A stretch of DNA of 64,000 nt from Arthrobacter cryoconiti. GTDB lineage: Bacteria > Actinomycetota > Actinomycetes > Actinomycetales > Micrococcaceae. A program made the translations under genes and the position numbers. Shown one piece after another: positions 6,601-14,486 of the stretch. Location of the stretch: positions 62,001 through 126,000 of the forward strand of contig NZ_JAJJBU010000013.1 of NCBI RefSeq assembly GCF_020905375.1. The letters are read 5' to 3'. Every line of letters starts with the position of its first letter. Positions within the stretch are counted from its first letter, which is position 1. The notes under the pieces are model-generated. The model was not told the origin of the DNA. It saw nothing but the letters and a program-made list of their open reading frames with translations, and ran no database searches.

Positions 6601-9375
6601 GTGCCAAGCAAGGCAGCCAGCAAGCCAAAGACAGGCAAAAAGCTCGTCATCGTAGAGTCACCGGCCAAGAGCAAAACTATTGCGAAATACTTGGGCGAGG
6701 GCTTTGTTGTGGAAGCTTCCATTGGACACATACGTGACCTGCCTCAGCCCTCAGACCTGCCCGCGGAACTGAAAAAGTCACCGATCGGCAAGTTTGCGGT
6801 GGACCTAGAAAACGGTTTCAAACCGTACTACGTCATCTCCCCGGACAAGAAAAAGACGGTAGCCCAGCTCAAGGCGCAGCTCAAAGATGCCGACGAACTC
6901 TACCTCGCAACTGATGGGGACCGTGAAGGCGAAGCCATCGCGTGGCACCTGTTGGAGGTACTTAAACCCAAAGTGCCCGTGCACCGGATGACCTTTGCTG
7001 AAATCACCAAGGAGTCCCTCCAGCGTGCCTTGGGAAATCTGCGCGAGTTGGACACCGACTTGGTCGATGCCCAGGAAACCCGCCGTGTTCTGGACCGCTT
7101 GTACGGATATGAGATTTCTCCAGTGCTGTGGCGGAAGGTTTCTCGCGGGCTTTCAGCTGGCCGAGTCCAATCTGTTGTGACTCGCATGGTGGTGGAGCGT
7201 GAGCGCGAACGTATGGCGTTCCGTTCTGCCGGATACTGGGATTTGGCGGGAACTTTCATTCCGGACGCCGCCGCGGGGGAGAAGTTCAGTGCCAAACTGG
7301 CTTCCCTGGACGGGTTGCGCGTAGCCTCCGGACGGGACTTCAACGACAAGGGCGAGCTCACTGGAAAGAACGTTGCGCACCTGGACGAAGCCAGGGCTAG
7401 GGCTCTAGCACAGGGTCTGGCGCAGGCAGACTTTGCCGTGCGGGCCGTAGAACACAAACCGTATACACGCCGGCCTGCCGCTCCGTTCACGACTTCCACA
7501 CTTCAGCAGGAGGCCGGGCGCAAGCTGCGCTTCTCCTCAAAGTCGACCATGCAGACGGCTCAGCGCCTGTATGAAAACGGTTACATCACGTATATGCGTA
7601 CCGATTCCTCCGCCTTGAGTGAGGAAGCGGTCAGCGCCGCTCGCCGTCAGGCGTCGGAACTATATGGGCCCGAATTCATCCCAGCTGCCAAGCGCGTCTA
7701 CGCCAACAAGAGTTCAAATGCCCAAGAAGCGCACGAGGCCATCCGCCCCGCAGGTGATTCTTTCCGCACTCCGGCTCAAGTGGCTAGTGCCCTGCGCGGG
7801 GACGAATTTAAGCTCTACGAGCTGATTTGGAAGCGTACGGTTGCCTCGCAGATGGCGGATGCCAAGGGTTCAACGGCGACCATCAAGTTAGGTGCCACAG
7901 CGGAAGATGGAGCGGATGCTGAATTTTCCGCCTCCGGGACCGTCATCACGTTCCGAGGCTTTATGGCAGCCTACGAGGAAGGCCGTGACGAGTCACGCGA
8001 GGACTCTGAGGACTCCAGCCGCCGTCTGCCTAACGTCAAGGCGAAGGACGCGCTGACGGCCGCCGAGGTCACAGCCAACGGGCACGAGACGTCTCCGCCG
8101 CCACGCTTCACCGAGGCGTCGCTGACCAAGGAGATGGAAGAACGGGATATCGGACGCCCGTCCACGTATGCGTCTACGTTGTCCACGATCATGGATCGCG
8201 GCTATGTTCGCAAACAAGGTTCGGCGCTGATCCCCACTTGGATCGCGTTCTCCGTCATTCGCCTGCTGGAGCAGCATTTCACCTCCTACGTGGATTACGA
8301 GTTCACGGCGGGCATGGAGACAGGCTTGGACCGGATCGCTCACGGCGAGGACAAGGGTTCTGACTGGCTGCGCCATTTCTACTTTGGCGACGGTGCTGAC
8401 GGGGGCGACGACGGCCTCTTCGGAATTGTGAACAACTTGGGTGAAATCGATGCCCGGGACATCAACTCCATCGCCATCACGGACACTTTGATGCTGCGCG
8501 TGGGCAAATTTGGTCCGTACCTTGAGTCCACTGTCCCCACAGTTGACCCGAAGACCGGGGAGATTATTGAAGCCGCTCGAGCCAACGTCCCTGAAGATCT
8601 GGCCCCAGATGAGCTAACGCCCGCCAAGGCACAAGAGCTGATGGAAACGGCCGCACCCGAGGAACGGGTGCTGGGTGTGGACCCCGGCACGAACCGCACG
8701 GTGGTGGCCAAGAACGGGCGCTATGGCCCGTATGTTACCGAAGTAATCCCCGAGCTGACCGAGGAAGAGATCGCTAACCAGCCGGTGGAGTACTACAAGA
8801 ACGGCAAGCCTAAACCGCCGAAAAAGCCAGTGAAGGAGAAGCCGCGAACAGGGTCGCTCTTTAAAACCATGAGCGTGGACACGGTTACGCTGGAGCAGGC
8901 TCTAGATATCATGAGCCTGCCCCGGGTATTGGGAGCAGATGCGGACGGTGCGGAGATCACCGTACAGAATGGACGGTTTGGTCCCTACCTAAAGAAAGGT
9001 TCGGATTCACGTTCCATTGCCAGCGAGGACGAAATCTTCACGATCACCCTCGATGCCGCACTGGAAATCTACTCCCAGCCCAAGCAGCGTGGGGCCCGAG
9101 CCGCGGTGGCACCTCTTGCGGAGTTTGGCGACGACCCCGTGTCAGAGAAGAAGATCGTGGTGAAAGAAGGTCGCTTTGGCCCCTACATCACCGACGGTAT
9201 TACGAACATCACTGTGCCCCGGGGCACAGACGTTGAAGAACTGACACGGGAAATCGCGATCGAGCTGCTGGCGGACAAGCGTGAACGCGGTCCAATCAAG
9301 CGAACAGCCAAAACGGCCGCTAAGAAGGCTCCAGCTAAGAAGCCGGCGGCGAAGAAGAAAGTTAGCGCTAAGTAA
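6601..9375 (+). CDS. topA: DNA topoisomerase I
   Basis: The 924-residue type IA topoisomerase relaxes negatively supercoiled DNA. It has the N-terminal TOPRIM domain (KKLVIVESPAKSKTI, then TDGDREGEAIAWH), and the catalytic tyrosine is Tyr331 in YITYMRTDSSA. Instead of the zinc fingers of the E. coli enzyme, it has several C-terminal repeats containing GRFGPY or GRYGPY, followed by a strongly basic Lys/Ala tail, as in mycobacterial TopA. The start is GTG 6601, with an AGGAG ribosome-binding site at about 6591-6595. The gene lies apart from its neighbours and probably has its own promoter in 6464-6600. Confidence 0.97.
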   Translation: MPSKAASKPKTGKKLVIVESPAKSKTIAKYLGEGFVVEASIGHIRDLPQPSDLPAELKKSPIGKFAVDLENGFKPYYVISPDKKKTVAQLKAQLKDADELYLATDGDREGEAIAWHLLEVLKPKVPVHRMTFAEITKESLQRALGNLRELDTDLVDAQETRRVLDRLYGYEISPVLWRKVSRGLSAGRVQSVVTRMVVERERERMAFRSAGYWDLAGTFIPDAAAGEKFSAKLASLDGLRVASGRDFNDKGELTGKNVAHLDEARARALAQGLAQADFAVRAVEHKPYTRRPAAPFTTSTLQQEAGRKLRFSSKSTMQTAQRLYENGYITYMRTDSSALSEEAVSAARRQASELYGPEFIPAAKRVYANKSSNAQEAHEAIRPAGDSFRTPAQVASALRGDEFKLYELIWKRTVASQMADAKGSTATIKLGATAEDGADAEFSASGTVITFRGFMAAYEEGRDESREDSEDSSRRLPNVKAKDALTAAEVTANGHETSPPPRFTEASLTKEMEERDIGRPSTYASTLSTIMDRGYVRKQGSALIPTWIAFSVIRLLEQHFTSYVDYEFTAGMETGLDRIAHGEDKGSDWLRHFYFGDGADGGDDGLFGIVNNLGEIDARDINSIAITDTLMLRVGKFGPYLESTVPTVDPKTGEIIEAARANVPEDLAPDELTPAKAQELMETAAPEERVLGVDPGTNRTVVAKNGRYGPYVTEVIPELTEEEIANQPVEYYKNGKPKPPKKPVKEKPRTGSLFKTMSVDTVTLEQALDIMSLPRVLGADADGAEITVQNGRFGPYLKKGSDSRSIASEDEIFTITLDAALEIYSQPKQRGARAAVAPLAEFGDDPVSEKKIVVKEGRFGPYITDGITNITVPRGTDVEELTREIAIELLADKRERGPIKRTAKTAAKKAPAKKPAAKKKVSAK

Positions 9376-9451
9376 TCGTTGCTCAACGGCCCAGATTTCT
9401 CGGGTGCGGGCCCGTGGTGTGTGTGGGCCCGCAACAGGCAATAATAGGCTT

Positions 9452-10438
9452 ATGAGATTAGGCGTCCTTGATATTGGTTCCAACACGGTTCATCTGTTGC
9501 TGGTCGATGCCCGCCCCGGAGCGAAGCCGGAAGCCTATGCCTCGCATAAGCGGGCCTTGAGTCTGGTGGCGTACCTCGACGGCGACGGTAACATCACCGA
9601 CGAGGGTCAAGTTGAGCTGATCGAATTCATTTTGGAGGCATGGGAATTCGCCGCCAAGCACAAAGCCAAGGACCTGCTGGCTTTTTGTACCTCGGCCATC
9701 CGCGAATCCACCAACGGCGCCGCAGTGCTCCAGCGCGTTCAGCACGAAACAACTATCCGACTCACCGAGCTTACGGGCGACGAGGAATCCGCCATGACTT
9801 TCTTCGCTGTCCGGCGTTGGCACGGCTGGGATGCTGGCACCATCTTGAACCTTGACATTGGCGGTGGCTCCTTTGAAATTGCTCAGGGCACAAATGAACT
9901 TCCTGACGTGGCTCATTCCGTGCCACTAGGGGCTGGCAGGCTCACGCGGGACTGGTTGACCGAAGATCCGCCTACGGCCAAGAGTGTCAAGGAACTGCGC
10001 AAGCACATCAAAGCAACACTCAAGGCGCCGGTGGCCACCACACAGGCACTCGGAGCGCCCAACATTGTCACTGGCTCCTCCAAAACCTTCCGGGCGCTGG
10101 CCCGTATTACCGGGGCAGCGCCGTCGGCCATGGGGCCCTACGTCAAGCGAGAACTGCACCTCACGGATTTGGGTCTGTGGAGCCAGCGGCTCTCGGCAAT
10201 GTCCTCCGCGGATCGTCTGCATCTGCCAGGGGTGTCCATGGCGCGCGCCAAGCAGGTGCTGGCCGGCGCCCTGGTCGCGCAAAGTGCCTTGGAGATGTTC
10301 AAAGTCCAGTCCATGCAGATTAGCCCCTGGGCGCTGCGTGAGGGACTGATTTTGCGAAGGCTGGACCAACTGGTCTTTGACGGCCCCCTGGATCCGCCCG
10401 CGCACGTGGGAAAACTTACCAACTCGGCAGCAAGCTAG
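9452..10438 (+). CDS. Ppx/GppA-family exopolyphosphatase/pppGpp phosphohydrolase
   Basis: The 328-residue protein starts with the ASKHA-fold phosphate motif LGVLDIGSNTVHLLLVDA, then has FCTSAIRES and the second phosphate motif NLDIGGGSFEIA, which identify the Ppx/GppA family. At about 330 residues it is the short actinobacterial form (like Ppx1 of Mycobacterium) that lacks the C-terminal HD-like domain. It acts on inorganic polyphosphate or related substrates in the cytoplasm. The start is ATG 9452: the upstream open frame overlaps the end of topA, and an AATAAT -10-like element six bases upstream suggests a leaderless transcript. The next gene begins directly after its stop. Confidence 0.92.
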   Translation: MRLGVLDIGSNTVHLLLVDARPGAKPEAYASHKRALSLVAYLDGDGNITDEGQVELIEFILEAWEFAAKHKAKDLLAFCTSAIRESTNGAAVLQRVQHETTIRLTELTGDEESAMTFFAVRRWHGWDAGTILNLDIGGGSFEIAQGTNELPDVAHSVPLGAGRLTRDWLTEDPPTAKSVKELRKHIKATLKAPVATTQALGAPNIVTGSSKTFRALARITGAAPSAMGPYVKRELHLTDLGLWSQRLSAMSSADRLHLPGVSMARAKQVLAGALVAQSALEMFKVQSMQISPWALREGLILRRLDQLVFDGPLDPPAHVGKLTNSAAS

Positions 10439-10444
10439 GTGAAT

Positions 10445-11320
10445 ATGGATAACTCAGAAACCAGTTCCGGCCAGAACCAAGAACCTGGATCGAAAAATGA
10501 TCCGCTTCCGAAGCCCTCTGATGGACCCAAACGCCACATTCCAGTGGCCTTGTCCACGGCCTCCGTCTACCCGCTATCCGTGCACGATGGTTTTGCGGTG
10601 GCTGCAGACCTGGGCTACGACGGCGTCGAGGTTTTAGTGACGCACAACGGTGACAGTCAGGATTCCCGGGCCCTGAACCAGCTGGCCGAACGCTACAACC
10701 AGCCGATTTTAGCGATCCATGCCCCTACACTGCTGCTCACCCAGCAGGTCTGGGGCAGCGCCTGGAACAAAGTCCAGCGTTCGGCGCAAATGGCCGTGGA
10801 CGTAGGCGCTGACGTGGTGGTGGTGCATCCACCATTCCGCTGGCAAAACGACTATGCGGAAACTTTTGCCCAAGGCGTGCGTGACATTGCCGATGCCTTC
10901 GAAATCCGCATTGCCGTGGAGAACATGTACCCGTGGAGGTTGCGCGGGCGTGAAGCCTTGGCCTACCTGCCACACTGGGACCCGGTGCCACAGGATTACA
11001 AAGATGTCACCTGGGACTTTTCCCATGCGGCCACAGCTGACGCGTCCAGTTTGGACGCCGTGAAGGCGCTGGGGTCCCGGCTACGGCACATCCACCTCAC
11101 CGATGGCACCTCACCATCCACTAAGGATCAGCATTTGATCCCTGGGCACGGAACTCAAGAATGCGTAGAAGTGCTCCAACACGTGGCTAATAGTGGCTTT
11201 GACGGGGCCGTGGTAGCTGAGATTTCAACGCGCAAGGCCAAGGGGGCCGGACAGCGCGAGGAATGGCTCGCCGAGACCCTTGAGTTTGCTCGAGTGCATT
11301 TGGGGCAGACGGTCAGCTAA
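10445..11320 (+). CDS. Sugar phosphate isomerase/epimerase-like TIM-barrel protein
   Basis: The roughly 291-residue protein resembles the xylose isomerase-like/AP endonuclease 2 TIM-barrel family. Visible features are the first strand VALSTASVYPLSVHDGF, the segment GYDGVEVLVTHNGDSQD, metal-ligand-type residues in VVVHPPFRW, AVENMYPW and WDFSHAATAD, and the late motif RHIHLTDGT. The first 30 residues are polar and low-complexity. The physiological substrate is unknown. In actinobacteria this gene commonly sits between ppx and proC, as here. The start is ambiguous between GTG 10439, which directly follows the Ppx stop, and ATG 10445, which has AGGTG just before it. Confidence 0.85.
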   Translation: MDNSETSSGQNQEPGSKNDPLPKPSDGPKRHIPVALSTASVYPLSVHDGFAVAADLGYDGVEVLVTHNGDSQDSRALNQLAERYNQPILAIHAPTLLLTQQVWGSAWNKVQRSAQMAVDVGADVVVVHPPFRWQNDYAETFAQGVRDIADAFEIRIAVENMYPWRLRGREALAYLPHWDPVPQDYKDVTWDFSHAATADASSLDAVKALGSRLRHIHLTDGTSPSTKDQHLIPGHGTQECVEVLQHVANSGFDGAVVAEISTRKAKGAGQREEWLAETLEFARVHLGQTVS

Positions 11321-11364: not shown

Positions 11365-11485
11365 TAAATGCGAAACCGCCGGAGGTAGCTGCCAGCGGAT
11401 GGGGGATCACTGGCGAGTTCTCCGACGGTTTGACTGGTCTTCAGGACAAGACCAGTCCGATCATCACTCGCACCCTTATGAGGTA
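11365..11485 (-). ncRNA. Candidate small RNA A with C-rich terminator loop
   Basis: On the minus strand a TAGTAT -10 element (11492-11497) is followed six bases later by a predicted start at 11485. The 5' end contains TACCTCAT, three variable bases, then GGTGCGAGTGATGA. A perfect 10-bp hairpin follows (11432-11457), and then a long terminator-like hairpin (11376-11428) whose loop carries CCCCC, ending in a T-containing tail. The total is about 121 nt. The same order of elements recurs in candidate B, 221 bp away. An in-frame ATG (11464) would encode only seven residues. No long ORF explains the conservation between the two copies. Confidence 0.5.
11376..11428 (-). terminator. Terminator-like hairpin of candidate RNA A
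   Basis: The outer arms 11376-11384 and 11420-11428 pair with one mismatch. The inner arms GCCAG (11391-11395) and CTGGC (11410-11414) pair perfectly. The loop on the RNA sense contains CCCCC. On the minus strand the hairpin is followed by TTTCGCATTT, a weak U tract. It could also act as the convergent terminator for the isomerase-like gene upstream. Confidence 0.45.
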
Positions 11486-11491
11486 CTTAAA

Positions 11492-11497
11492 ATACTA
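11492..11497 (-). promoter_or_regulatory. -10 element of candidate RNA A
   Basis: TAGTAT on the minus strand lies exactly six bases before the conserved TACCTCAT start. The matching element in copy B is TAGAGT at the same distance. No convincing -35 box is visible. Confidence 0.4.
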
Positions 11498-11586
11498 AGA
11501 CCTTTATGTGGGAAGAGCCGGGGTGTTAGCTGTGCGTTTGCTGTTAGATTGTGCGGCGGCTTCCACAGCTGGAAAGAAAAGGCCCG

Positions 11587-11706
11587 AAAACGAGAAACGC
11601 CGGAAGCAATACCAGGCGTTGGGGGGAATGCCTGGCGTGCTTCCGGCGTCTGGCTAGGCGTTGTCACCAACTCCTAAGCCTTCATCACTCGCACCTCCAT
11701 GAGGTA
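11587..11706 (-). ncRNA. Candidate small RNA B with C-rich terminator loop
   Basis: This second copy has the same architecture as candidate A. TAGAGT (11713-11718) stands six bases before a predicted start at 11706, then TACCTCAT, GGAGGTGCGAGTGATGA, and a short hairpin with a GTGA tetraloop (GTTG/CAAC plus AGGC/GCCT arms). A strong terminator hairpin (11597-11649) follows, with CCCCCC in its loop and a TTTCTCGTTTTC tail. It is about 120 nt long. The perfect Shine-Dalgarno-like GGAGGTG is followed by ATG-AAG-GCT-TAG, a three-residue ORF. The C-rich loop recalls the actinobacterial 6C RNA family, but only one such loop is present here. Confidence 0.55.
11597..11649 (-). terminator. Rho-independent terminator of candidate RNA B
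   Basis: A perfect 12-bp outer stem (11597-11608 with 11638-11649) and an inner stem CCAGGC/GCCTGG enclose a loop with six C residues in the minus-strand sense. A T-rich tail follows on the minus strand only, which gives the direction. It is the clearest intrinsic terminator in this gap. Confidence 0.65.
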
Positions 11707-11712
11707 GTTATG

Positions 11713-11718
11713 ACTCTA
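11713..11718 (-). promoter_or_regulatory. -10 element of candidate RNA B
   Basis: TAGAGT on the minus strand lies six bases before the conserved TACCTCAT block. Its spacing matches the TAGTAT element of copy A. Confidence 0.4.
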
Positions 11719-11861
11719 GGGGGACACTCTGGACATAGGCCCCGGTCCTGCTGGGAAATAGCTGACAACCCTGTCCCGTGCGGTACTGCACGTGTTCTTC
11801 TGCTGGCATCGTGTTCTCTTCGCAGCTTGCATGCGCAGGCTCGGGGAAGAAAGATAGGGGC

Positions 11862-12698
11862 ATGAGCAAAAAAACTGTATTTCTAGGTTGCGGGTCAATG
11901 GGTGAGGCTATTTTGACTGGCTTATTGGCTGCTGGGACCCCGCCGCAAAGTGTGTACGTTACCGTGCGCAGGGCCGAACGGGCACAAGAACTGGCCCAAC
12001 GGCACGGTGTTACGGCACTGGCCCAGAACGAGGACAGCAACTCCAATACGGATGCGGTAATGGGCGCTGACGTTGTCATCCTCGGGGTCAAGCCTGTGGG
12101 CATTGCGGGGCTGTGCCGAGAAATTGCCGACCATCTAGAACCGACGGCCGTGGTGATCAGCGTTGCGGCGGCAGTTTCACTGGCGCAGCTAGAAGGCGCT
12201 CTCAAACCGGGTCAGGCGGTGGTGCGCTCAATGCCGAACACGCCGTTGAAAGTCGGCCGTGGTGTGGTGGCTCTCTCTGGAGGCAGTCATGTTGACGAGT
12301 CGGCGCTTTCTGCAGCACACCAGGTTTTTGATGGTTCCGGAGTGGTACTGGACGTGCCCGAAGAACAGCAGAATGCCGTCTCGGCAATCAGTGGATCCGG
12401 TCCTGCTTATGTGTTTTATTTGGCAGAAGCCATGGCTGCCGCGGCCCGAGACTTTGGCCTCTCGCCGGAAGTTGCTGGCGTGCTGGCCCGGGAAACCGTT
12501 GCTGGTGCGGGACTTATGCTTGCCGAACCGGGTGCAGATCCTGCAAACTTGCGTCGGGCCGTGACGAGTCCCCATGGCACGACCGAGCAGGCAATTGCCA
12601 GCTTCGAACATCAAGGATTGCCAAACATGGTGCTGGTAGCGGCCAAAGCTGCCGCGTCGAGGGCCGCCGAGATGACGGGCGAGCTCGCCTCAGCCTAA
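11862..12698 (+). CDS. proC: Pyrroline-5-carboxylate reductase
   Basis: The 278-residue protein catalyses the last step of proline synthesis, NAD(P)H-dependent reduction of pyrroline-5-carboxylate. It has the N-terminal Rossmann motif VFLGCGSMGEAI, the family phrase RSMPNTPLKVGRGV, and the C-terminal signature SAISGSGPAYVFYLAEAM with VAGAGLML. Length is normal for ProC. I use ATG 11862 although the frame stays open to 11778, because the family starts a few residues before the Rossmann strand. The gene ends convergently with the alkyltransferase operon, 49 bp apart. Confidence 0.95.
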   Translation: MSKKTVFLGCGSMGEAILTGLLAAGTPPQSVYVTVRRAERAQELAQRHGVTALAQNEDSNSNTDAVMGADVVILGVKPVGIAGLCREIADHLEPTAVVISVAAAVSLAQLEGALKPGQAVVRSMPNTPLKVGRGVVALSGGSHVDESALSAAHQVFDGSGVVLDVPEEQQNAVSAISGSGPAYVFYLAEAMAAAARDFGLSPEVAGVLARETVAGAGLMLAEPGADPANLRRAVTSPHGTTEQAIASFEHQGLPNMVLVAAKAAASRAAEMTGELASA

Positions 12699-12747: not shown

Positions 12748-13386
12748 TCAGACTGCTTCCAAGCTCAGCAATAGCGCCTTTGCCTCCGGGCCACCCAAAT
12801 ATGCTCCCTGCGACCCGTCTGAGCGGATGACGCGATGGCACGGGACCACTACCGGTAGGGGGTTACGAGCGCAAGCTGTCCCCACGGCACGCACTGCCCG
12901 TGGGCTACTCGTTAAGGCTGCGACGGCGGAGTAACTGGCTGTGGAGCCGTATTCAATCTCGTGCAAGTGGGTGAGGACCTCATACCGAAAGCCGCTGGCC
13001 AGCCGGAAGTCCAATGGCAGGTCAAAAGTGTGTCGTGTATGGGCGAAATACTCCTCGAATTCCCGGGCCGCGGCATCCAGCCGTGCGGGCGCGTGCAGGA
13101 TCCGTGGACTGATGGACTCGGCAAGTTCGGCTAGTACGGTGTCGTGCCCTTCCACGGAGAAGGCCACCCGCACCAGCCCCACCTCCGTGGCGACCAGCAG
13201 CAGCGGTCCAACAGGGGAATCGATCGATCTATACGCCACGTCCACCAATCCATGAGCTTGCGCCGCGCCGCGCAGCACGCCGCTTAGGCGCACGAGTGTT
13301 GCGGCCTCATCCGCGGCGACGGCTTCTAAGCCGGCGTTCAGGGGCTGCAGCGCGTGCATGCTTCGTTCAGCTCTTGTCATCATCAT
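12748..13386 (-). CDS. Methylated-DNA-protein cysteine methyltransferase (Ogt-like) with N-terminal extension
   Basis: The 212-residue protein has a C-terminal Ogt/MGMT domain with the alkyl-acceptor Cys183 in VVVPCHRVIRSDGS and the GSTASYSAVAAL helix-turn-helix region. It should remove O6-alkyl groups from guanine by a suicidal transfer to the cysteine. The first ~45 residues, before VDVAYRSIDSPVGPLL where Ogt proteins usually begin, are an alpha-helix-prone extension of unknown function. Translation begins within the end of the sigma-factor gene (20-bp overlap, three consecutive ATG codons), so the two are coupled. It is the third gene of the alkyltransferase-sigma-alkyltransferase operon. 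Confidence 0.88.
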   Translation of the reverse strand: MMMTRAERSMHALQPLNAGLEAVAADEAATLVRLSGVLRGAAQAHGLVDVAYRSIDSPVGPLLLVATEVGLVRVAFSVEGHDTVLAELAESISPRILHAPARLDAAAREFEEYFAHTRHTFDLPLDFRLASGFRYEVLTHLHEIEYGSTASYSAVAALTSSPRAVRAVGTACARNPLPVVVPCHRVIRSDGSQGAYLGGPEAKALLLSLEAV

Positions 13387-13903
13387 CGAACCCCTTCCAG
13401 GGTGCTAAAAGGGTGCGCAGCGATTTCATGCCATCTGCACCAGCTCTGCGCGCGGCGGCCTCGGTGCCGCCCAGCAGTTCTGCCACGTCGGCATACGGCA
13501 ACCCTGCCAAGTGGTGGTAAGCCACAGCGTGCCGGCGCTTGTTCGGCAGCAGAGCCAGCGCGGCCCATACCGCCTGGGCCATTTCCGCGCTTTCGACAGC
13601 GCCTATCACCGCGTCGGTGCCCGAGGCGGTGTGGTTCGGGAGAAGATCCGCAACGCCGCCCACTGGAACGGGGAGCGTTGCGATGCGGCGGTGATGGTCC
13701 ATGGCCTTATTCCGGGTGATCGTAATGAGCCATGCCTGGACGTTTTTGACGTCGGTGCGTGGGTATGCGCGAAGGGCCGCCAGAAACGTTTCCTGCCAGA
13801 CGTCGTCGGCGTCTTGGACTCCTACCAGAGCGCGGGCGACCCGCAGCACTGATGCGCCATGACGGGAAATAAGTACCTCAAAGGGAAGCTTGGCAGCTGT
13901 CAC
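13367..13903 (-). CDS. ECF-type RNA polymerase sigma factor
   Basis: The 178-residue protein has a sigma-70 region 2 (RHGASVLRVARALVG, then DADDVWQETFLAALR and VQAWLITITRNKAMDHHRR) and a region 4 helix-turn-helix (LALLPNKRRHAVAYHHLAG, then YADVAELLGGTEAAARR). It lacks regions 1 and 3, as expected for ECF sigma factors. No separate anti-sigma gene is adjacent. I start at GTG 13903: upstream codons in this frame lie within the preceding ogt gene and look non-coding. It lies 8 bp after one alkyltransferase gene and overlaps the next, suggesting a role in the alkylation-damage response. That role is inferred from context only. Confidence 0.88.
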   Translation of the reverse strand: MTAAKLPFEVLISRHGASVLRVARALVGVQDADDVWQETFLAALRAYPRTDVKNVQAWLITITRNKAMDHHRRIATLPVPVGGVADLLPNHTASGTDAVIGAVESAEMAQAVWAALALLPNKRRHAVAYHHLAGLPYADVAELLGGTEAAARRAGADGMKSLRTLLAPWKGFDDDDKS

Positions 13904-13911
13904 AGTCGAAC

Positions 13912-14421
13912 CTAAAACAAAGCTTCGGTGTGGGTGCGAGTTGGGTTTTCGCGTTCGAGCAGAAATTGTTTGCGAGCAAGCGCGCCGGCATAACCCACCA
14001 GGGAACCGTCGGCGCCAACCACACGATGACACGGGACAATGATGCTGATCGGGTTGCGCGCATTGGCCGAACCTACCGCCTGGGCCATGGAACGGTCCCC
14101 TAGCATTTCTGCCAGGTCCGCATACGTGCGCAGTTCCCCATAGGGAATGCTCGTCAACGCTTTCCAAACGCGGTGCGCGAAGGCGCTACCAACTGGTGCC
14201 AGGGGGAGAGAGAAAACTTGGCGGGAACCGGCAAAGTATTCGCCTAGCTGTTCTGCTGCTGCGGTGAGCACGGCGGAAGAAGAAACATCGAGGCACTCGC
14301 CCAGAGCGTCCGAGGCTGGCCGTCGCTTGTGCTCAGCCATGTACACGGCGGCCAGCCCGGCGTCGTTCTCCACTGCTGTCAGTAAGCCAATGGGTGAGTC
14401 AAAGATGGTGTGCGCTCTCAT
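13912..14421 (-). CDS. Methylated-DNA-protein cysteine methyltransferase (Ogt)
   Basis: The 169-residue protein is a standard Ogt-type DNA repair alkyltransferase: DSPIGLLTAVENDAG near the start, PYGELRTYADLAEMLG for the DNA-binding helix-turn-helix, and the acceptor Cys131 in IIVPCHRVVGADGS. It repairs O6-alkylguanine directly. Two in-frame ATG codons exist. I prefer 14421, which has GGAG eight to nine bases upstream, over 14436. It is the first gene of a three-gene operon with an ECF sigma factor and a second, extended alkyltransferase. Confidence 0.93.
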   Translation of the reverse strand: MRAHTIFDSPIGLLTAVENDAGLAAVYMAEHKRRPASDALGECLDVSSSAVLTAAAEQLGEYFAGSRQVFSLPLAPVGSAFAHRVWKALTSIPYGELRTYADLAEMLGDRSMAQAVGSANARNPISIIVPCHRVVGADGSLVGYAGALARKQFLLERENPTRTHTEALF

Positions 14422-14486
14422 GAATTTTCTCTCCATGCCCTGTAGACGCGTACCGCCGCGTTTGTGTGAGGAACCCGGCCGTGAAA

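Follow-up and report, generated by a model that had tools for sequence, protein, structure and literature searches.

The window, a 64,000-nt stretch of an Arthrobacter cryoconiti contig, contains two tandem units on the minus strand, A and B, situated between two genes of the plus strand. On one side lies the gene of a TIM-barrel (xylose isomerase-like) protein (10439–11320), which comes after a Ppx/GppA gene (within 9281–10438) and is convergent with the units; on the other side lies the divergent gene proC (11862–12698), recognized by its Pfam P5CR_dimer domain. Past proC, two O6-methylguanine-DNA methyltransferase-like genes flank an open reading frame resembling an ECF sigma factor gene (12748–14436, minus strand), the first of them being supported by Pfam and the rest by reading of the ORF list. 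Both units share a conserved block, TACCTCATNNNGGTGCGAGTGATGA, which is present exactly at 11682–11706 in unit A and at 11461–11485 in unit B, with 221 bp between the starts of the units, and which none of 100 shuffled versions of the window contains, even when three mismatches are allowed. The two minus-strand units sharing a block, as described in the original prediction, are thus confirmed, and so are the −10 hexamers, TAGAGT in unit A (11713–11718) and TAGTAT in unit B (11492–11497), each placed exactly six bases upstream of the block. A sigma-70 scan at both units found no promoter with a −35 element. Two further features escaped the original prediction, namely a small hairpin inside the block (H1; ACCTC/GAGGT in unit A, followed by GGTGCGAGTGATGA), which together with the sequence after it forms a 5′ module, and an operator of 11-bp repeats upstream.

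The module is followed by hairpin H2 (11652–11680 in unit A, identified from the fold, and 11432–11457 in unit B) and by terminator hairpin H3 (11595–11651 and 11374–11430, respectively), the latter indicated by the fold in both units and additionally by covariation of the family helix in unit A and by covariation among orthologues in unit B. Within the loop of H3 there is a run of six C in unit A (11621–11626) and of five C in unit B (11401–11405), in agreement with the predicted order of a hairpin and a terminator-like hairpin with a C-run in its loop; the T-rich tails that were part of the same description are present, but they are modest (TTTCTCGTTTT and TTTCGCATTTAA). A simple terminator scan, limited to loops of 3–8, flagged the terminator hairpin of neither unit. 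The predicted transcripts of both units are approximately 115–120 nt long, and the two units have fold z-scores of −5.7 and −6.0, with none of 200 shuffles folding equally well. Both a pattern search and a covariance model search of the genome give a copy number of two, with both copies located in the window.

The proposal that the stems are under structural selection is borne out by the abundance of compensatory changes. In an alignment of 54 copies with C-rich loops (60 were selected, and six left out), 94.2% of the cells in the named structure pair, 15 of the 21 pairs show changes on both sides, and double-change cells number 201, compared with 68 after shuffling and with at most 39 when the partners are slid; none of 500 shuffles was as high on any measure of pairing or covariation. 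Among eight orthologues of unit B, compensatory changes are found in H2 as well as in the terminator hairpin. The products of these units are therefore structured RNAs, as expected for the postulated pair of structurally selected small RNAs with C-rich loops. H1, with at least 4 bp, is kept in 74 of 75 distinct variants, while its loop differs in length and sequence and includes UUCG and GUGA, a conservation that is only partly independent because CC and GG are already prescribed by the search pattern; in the 54-copy alignment, H1 varies on one side only. A typical RNA would begin with a 5′ hairpin and the GUGYGAGUGAUG(A) element, continue in most cases with a variable hairpin, and end in an intrinsic terminator; many copies, including those of Glutamicibacter, are composed of just the module and the terminator. 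Pairing of the invariant element with the 3′ tail of the same RNA, hinted at by one fold, was ruled out, as it is no better than pairing with shuffled tails (mean −7.47 versus −7.50, with 186 of 189 copies usable). A small ORF in the block (AAGGTG, then ATG or GTG) was also rejected, judged by eye, since the ATG varies (ATT, ATC, AAG) and no frame is open throughout the copies read.

With up to three mismatches allowed, the block is found in 141 of 197 Micrococcaceae genomes, representing 27 of 32 genera, with up to seven copies per genome; a reversed control pattern gave one match. A covariance-model search, a check proposed in the original prediction, extends this range within the Micrococcaceae. 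Model R1, which covers 41 positions of the −10 box and the module and was built from 58 sequences, was applied to 32 genomes taken from the 56 without a pattern match and to three positive ones. Copies at E ≤ 0.001 were identified in 25 of these 32 genomes, and the seven in which the model failed belong to two genera. A pattern scan of named genomes yielded at least 119 stretches, and among the 80 matches listed all but two are in genera of the Micrococcaceae (Arthrobacter, Glutamicibacter, Paeniglutamicibacter, Kocuria, Micrococcus, Citricoccus, Zhihengliuella, and others) or are labelled as belonging to this family. The two exceptions (L076 and L082) are contigs recorded as Sporosarcina beigongshangi and as an Acidobacteria MAG; the proteins encoded beside their copies are Micrococcaceae-like, sharing up to 89% and 92% identity with those of other loci, and the contigs look like misassigned Micrococcaceae DNA. 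Within the order but outside the family, a block match with two mismatches is present in four of 273 genomes, with no operator or hairpin visible by eye in the fetched loci, and a search of the class with stricter filters (296 genomes, the whole search set) gave one match outside the Micrococcaceae, L372 (E 0.004), which is without an operator; the order and class searches thus found no convincing copies outside the Micrococcaceae.

No family of Rfam 15 matches the two units. Among 18 other loci of these RNAs, the single match at gathering score is a TPP riboswitch elsewhere in its locus (RF00059, 62.7 bits, at 2479–2588 of L037, from genus g24), near an sRNA copy. The open-licence papers listed in our literature searches include neither one on this family nor one describing an sRNA of the Micrococcaceae. 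The RNAs therefore form a family that is spread through most of the Micrococcaceae and is missing from Rfam. Tandem arrangement is frequent, with 36 adjacent pairs less than 500 nt apart in the fetched loci. The gene found most often beside a copy is proC (in 39 of 152 loci, among which there is some overlap), and for this reason the position of the window copies, flanked by proC and by the Ppx/isomerase genes, looks ancestral.

A run of at least five C in a hairpin loop is present in 91 of 189 non-redundant copies, compared with 3.8 after base shuffling, and in 34 of the 36 copies at proC-type loci; in some copies (for example L014, L015, and L354) a second hairpin also bears a C-run. The C-rich loop is a subfamily trait, shared by both copies in the window, and it is the module that marks the family. 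Since about half of the copies are without a long C-run in the loop, the C-loop cannot be the whole function of these RNAs. By analogy with LhrC and other sRNAs, the UCCC motifs of which pair with ribosome-binding regions (PMC4132741), the C-rich loop, typically UUCCCCC(C)AA, probably base-pairs with G-rich ribosome-binding (Shine-Dalgarno) regions and would in this way repress translation.

Instead of a −35 element, up to four half-sites (about TTCNCAGC) precede the −10 box at 11-bp steps. The operator of unit A (11729–11769, minus strand) comprises the 11-bp-spaced half-sites TTGTCAGC and TTTCCCAGC, a degenerate third one, and TGTCCAG, with a matrix score of 19.7, and that of unit B (11508–11548, minus strand) comprises AACAGC, GCACAGC, CCCCGGC, and TCCCAC, also at 11-bp steps, with a score of 18.7; among 127,920 window positions on both strands, only these two operators reach a score of 13. 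When 131 non-redundant copies are aligned on the block, C-M-C-A-G maxima are seen at −58, −47, −36 (the weakest), and −25, the operator ends 10 bp before the −10 box, and the half-site logo is TTCNCAGS. CAG pairs 11 bp apart number 81 (1.8 ± 1.3 in shuffled sequences), those 22 bp apart 35 (1.5), and those 33 bp apart 20 (0.9). A score of at least 8 is attained by 99 of the 131 copies at the fixed register and by 127 when shifts of −12 to +3 are permitted; one of the four copies below 8 is probably a chance match to the block.

Because the matrix was trained on these 131 copies, the diverged copies identified with R1 were used as an independent test. The 15 loci that could be parsed, among 24 fetched, have scores of 9.6–24.4, while the background reaches 8 in 0 of 630 cases. 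Seven of the nine unparsed loci were rescored with a more permissive placement, with scores of 10.0, 10.1, 10.1, 13.4, 14.2, −5.8, and −1.9. L353 accounts for the score of −5.8; its repeats can be seen on inspection but stand in a shifted register because its H1 is longer. The score of −1.9 belongs to L372, the match outside the Micrococcaceae. In 2.13 Mb of DNA around sRNA, regulator, pstS, and LysM loci, 168 distinct sites score at least 16, a tally that is not genome-wide because the DNA was picked around such loci and because sRNA copies had served to train the matrix. The module follows 159 of these sites, and three more lie in sRNA copies (by eye, two in a shifted register and one with a decayed module); the remaining six are all in phoP loci, five of them at promoters in three loci and one at another position of such a locus. 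In 30 pstS loci, two of 232,758 positions reach 13, so the box is not simply a pstS box of the Micrococcaceae. One of these two sites (L232) is located on the same strand as a PstS domain match, approximately 200 bp upstream of it, and the other (L246) is on the opposite strand. The site in L232 is made of GTTCACC/GTTCACA repeats at 11-bp spacing and scores 15.5 with the sRNA matrix.

OmpR/PhoB regulators typically have their repeats just upstream of a −10 box. The sRNA operator, also in the independent copies, is characterized by direct repeats with a spacing of 11 bp, as described for such regulators in the excerpt of PMC4832192. PhoP of Mycobacterium tuberculosis contacts TCACAGC, with a 4-bp spacer and with tri- or tetra-repeats in some promoters (PMC4832192), and the best PhoR site of Corynebacterium glutamicum is CCTGTGAAaatCCTGTGAA (PMC3353115). 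The logo TTCNCAGS resembles TCACAGC and TTCACAGG, and the published PhoP and PhoR sites have the same half-site and 11-bp register as the sRNA operator, which is distinguished by its TTCNCAGS form, by having up to four half-sites, and by a nearly fixed register to the −10 box.

The genome encodes 12 Trans_reg_C proteins, and a box scoring at least 13 is located upstream of three of them (L287, 15.5; L288, 14.4; L292, 13.0), with the others scoring 8.8 or less. The nearest solved relative of L287 is M. tuberculosis PhoP (292 bits, followed by PrrA with 183), and in its recognition helix, SIVESYISYLRRK versus NVVESYVSYLRRK, four of the six residues listed as contacts in the excerpt of PMC4832192 are retained. 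A phoP orthologue of the L287 type is present in 34 of 34 genomes, including some in which no sRNA copy was found (G002, G005, and G033). The box recurs at the regulator's own promoter, with eight of 30 phoP promoters scoring at least 13 (22 are below) compared with 2.2% of 600 control segments. A precedent is provided by Mcr7, an actinobacterial small RNA that is a strong PhoP target in M. tuberculosis, its ChIP enrichment of 162 being the highest among the rows listed (PMC4038636); Mcr7 differs in having a 33-nt loop aimed at tatC, and it is likened to the present RNAs by description, not by sequence. The match to the published half-site and register, the boxes in phoP promoters, and the precedent of Mcr7 together strongly indicate control of the sRNA family by a PhoP-type regulator, although the cognate protein is not fixed by these data because L288 and L292 also have a similar box. 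The lower scores of 22 phoP promoters and the occurrence of phoP in genomes without an sRNA copy likewise count against this assignment. We infer that this PhoP-type (OmpR/PhoB family) response regulator would bind the tandem half-sites at the −35-less promoter and recruit RNA polymerase, so that the RNAs would be made when its sensor kinase is active; that it activates rather than represses these promoters is an assumption. The presence of several copies might make the response more sensitive, as has been argued for the multiple copies of LhrC (PMC4132741). The intergenic region divergent to proC (11707–11861) holds the promoter and the operator of unit A, and the regulator might therefore also affect proC.

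The part of the RNA that follows the 5′ hairpin, the GUGYGAGUGAUG(A) element, is near-invariant, whereas the sequence further downstream varies, and the element is also present in copies that are without C-loops. L153 and L168 carry a tandem duplication of AGGTGCGAGTGATGA, and L154 has more than one GTGATGA, which suggests a discrete binding module. The element should serve a purpose shared by all copies and would provide the same second contact for each of them, either as a shared seed or as a protein-binding handle. Its complement, with up to two mismatches, is found at 38 sites in the genome versus 23 for the control, two of the 38 being the RNAs themselves; it is weakly commoner than the control and is not clearly enriched.

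Inspection of 28 of the 36 non-self sites (L198–L225) revealed one in the 5′UTR of a LysM-SLT transglycosylase, with 13 of 14 positions complementary and a duplex of about −25 kcal/mol. Among 29 other LysM-SLT loci, five have a site with three mismatches, at positions −35 to −88 relative to the estimated start, whereas 24 have four or more mismatches; in all 30 loci, six sites are kept, compared with a mean of 0.37 for the permuted sites, and a control that keeps the first half of the site gave a mean of 1.2 and a maximum of 5. The transglycosylase mRNA is thus a candidate target with a partly conserved site, a lead only, because the locus was chosen for its match, the five hits may share descent, and the leaders hold TCACA repeats. 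A cell-wall enzyme as the target would suit an envelope-type stress regulator. Many of the LysM-SLT genes in L375–L404 are preceded by head-to-tail TCACA/WAACA repeats spaced by approximately 9 bp. These repeats are distinct from the 11-bp sRNA operator and may represent an MtrA-type site.

The family would work like the csRNAs of Streptococcus, controlled by CiaR, and the LhrC RNAs of Listeria monocytogenes, controlled by LisR, and it is a member of neither, nor of 6C. The csRNAs (51–202 nt; PMC3091779) also comprise several related sRNAs per genome, each with its own promoter and a terminator, and their promoters are bound by an OmpR-family regulator at direct repeats with 11-bp spacing. They differ in their streptococcal hosts, in the CiaR motif TTTAAG-N5-TTTAAG, and in an unpaired region complementary to the Shine-Dalgarno sequence and AUG, and the excerpt of PMC3091779 mentions no GGUGYGAGUGAUGA module. 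With TTCNCAGS in place of TTTAAG-N5-TTTAAG and with hosts in the Micrococcaceae, the present RNAs do not belong to the csRNAs. LhrC1–5 (PMC4132741) are likewise multicopy RNAs that depend on a two-component system (LisRK) and have UCCC loops pairing with target mRNA; unlike the present RNAs, they carry three CU-rich sites each, occur in Firmicutes, and are controlled by LisR instead of a PhoP-type regulator, and they bind Hfq. Having a single C-rich loop per window unit, and a different host, units A and B fall outside LhrC.

We regard it as quite probable that units A and B are two tandem genes of a multicopy family of trans-acting sRNAs under PhoP-type control, with repression by the C-loop in a subfamily. 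The original prediction had also raised kinship with the 6C RNA (RF01066; PMC4046766), to which the units are indeed similar in their actinobacterial host, in a length near the approximately 100 nt of 6C, and in runs of five or six C in terminator-type hairpin loops, extending to two hairpins in the three copies mentioned above. However, RF01066 gave no match at gathering score at the units or at the other copies tried, L354 included, none at the units even with relaxed thresholds, and none elsewhere in the genome; moreover, 6C has two stem-loops with about six C each according to the excerpt of PMC4046766, whereas each unit has one C-run. True 6C loci of the Micrococcaceae (L192–L195) are without the block and have no R1 match and no convincing operator (the best score being 9.8, on the minus strand of L193, with the rest at 6.5 or less), and 6C was found in four of 41 Micrococcaceae genomes, this one not among them. 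Membership in 6C is thus refuted and a close relationship to it is extremely improbable; a mechanism may be shared. These four 6C matches come from two genera (g6 and g11), with one of them above the cut-off; further C-rich loops are seen by eye beside the matches in L192–L194, and in g11 6C and the present family coexist. The layout of a promoter and a terminator upstream of coding DNA would suit a leader or attenuator acting in cis on a downstream gene. This reading was rejected from gene orientation, since in the window the units are not followed by any gene of the minus strand and the next gene (10439–11320) is a convergent one of the plus strand; the neighbours also vary among the copies, and two independent promoter–terminator units stand in tandem, so we give this explanation hardly any weight. 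It is equally hard to believe that the block acts at the level of DNA as an element of the promoter or a site of a regulator, with an RNA that has no function of its own: the block does begin where transcription is predicted to start and surpasses every other part in conservation, yet the compensatory changes in the stems and the conservation of the C-loop act on RNA, and the pairing in H1 persists across the loop changes.

A more serious competitor, although one we think unlikely, is that the response regulator induces sponge RNAs, in which GGUGYGAGUGAUGA binds a protein that is being titrated, in the manner of CsrB/RsmZ, and the C-loops are accessory. The near-invariance of the element against a variable downstream sequence, its retention in copies without C-loops, its duplication or repetition in three loci, and the lack of clear enrichment of its complement in the genome would all agree with a sponge. 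On the other hand, most of the RNAs have one element each, which is few for a sponge, and the binding protein is only hypothetical; the strong selection for the C-loop at proC-type loci and the partial conservation of the complementary 5′UTR site among relatives also speak against it.

These observations describe a widespread sRNA family, without a match in Rfam 15, tied to a conserved type of two-component regulator, in which the signature of promoter plus module makes such RNAs findable by sequence alone. They raise the question of whether actinobacterial PhoP systems act largely through RNAs, with Mcr7 as a known case. They also prompt one to ask which partner the invariant 5′ module has and whether terminator loops rich in C have arisen repeatedly as anti-Shine-Dalgarno devices. 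Actinobacteria are not known to possess Hfq. We can speculate, as a long shot, that the PhoP-type system of the Micrococcaceae works largely via dispersed, duplicating sRNAs and that GGUGYGAGUGAUGA serves as a handle for an RNA-binding protein not yet described, in which case these RNAs would be the actinobacterial counterpart of the Csr/Rsm sponge or of chaperone-dependent sRNAs.
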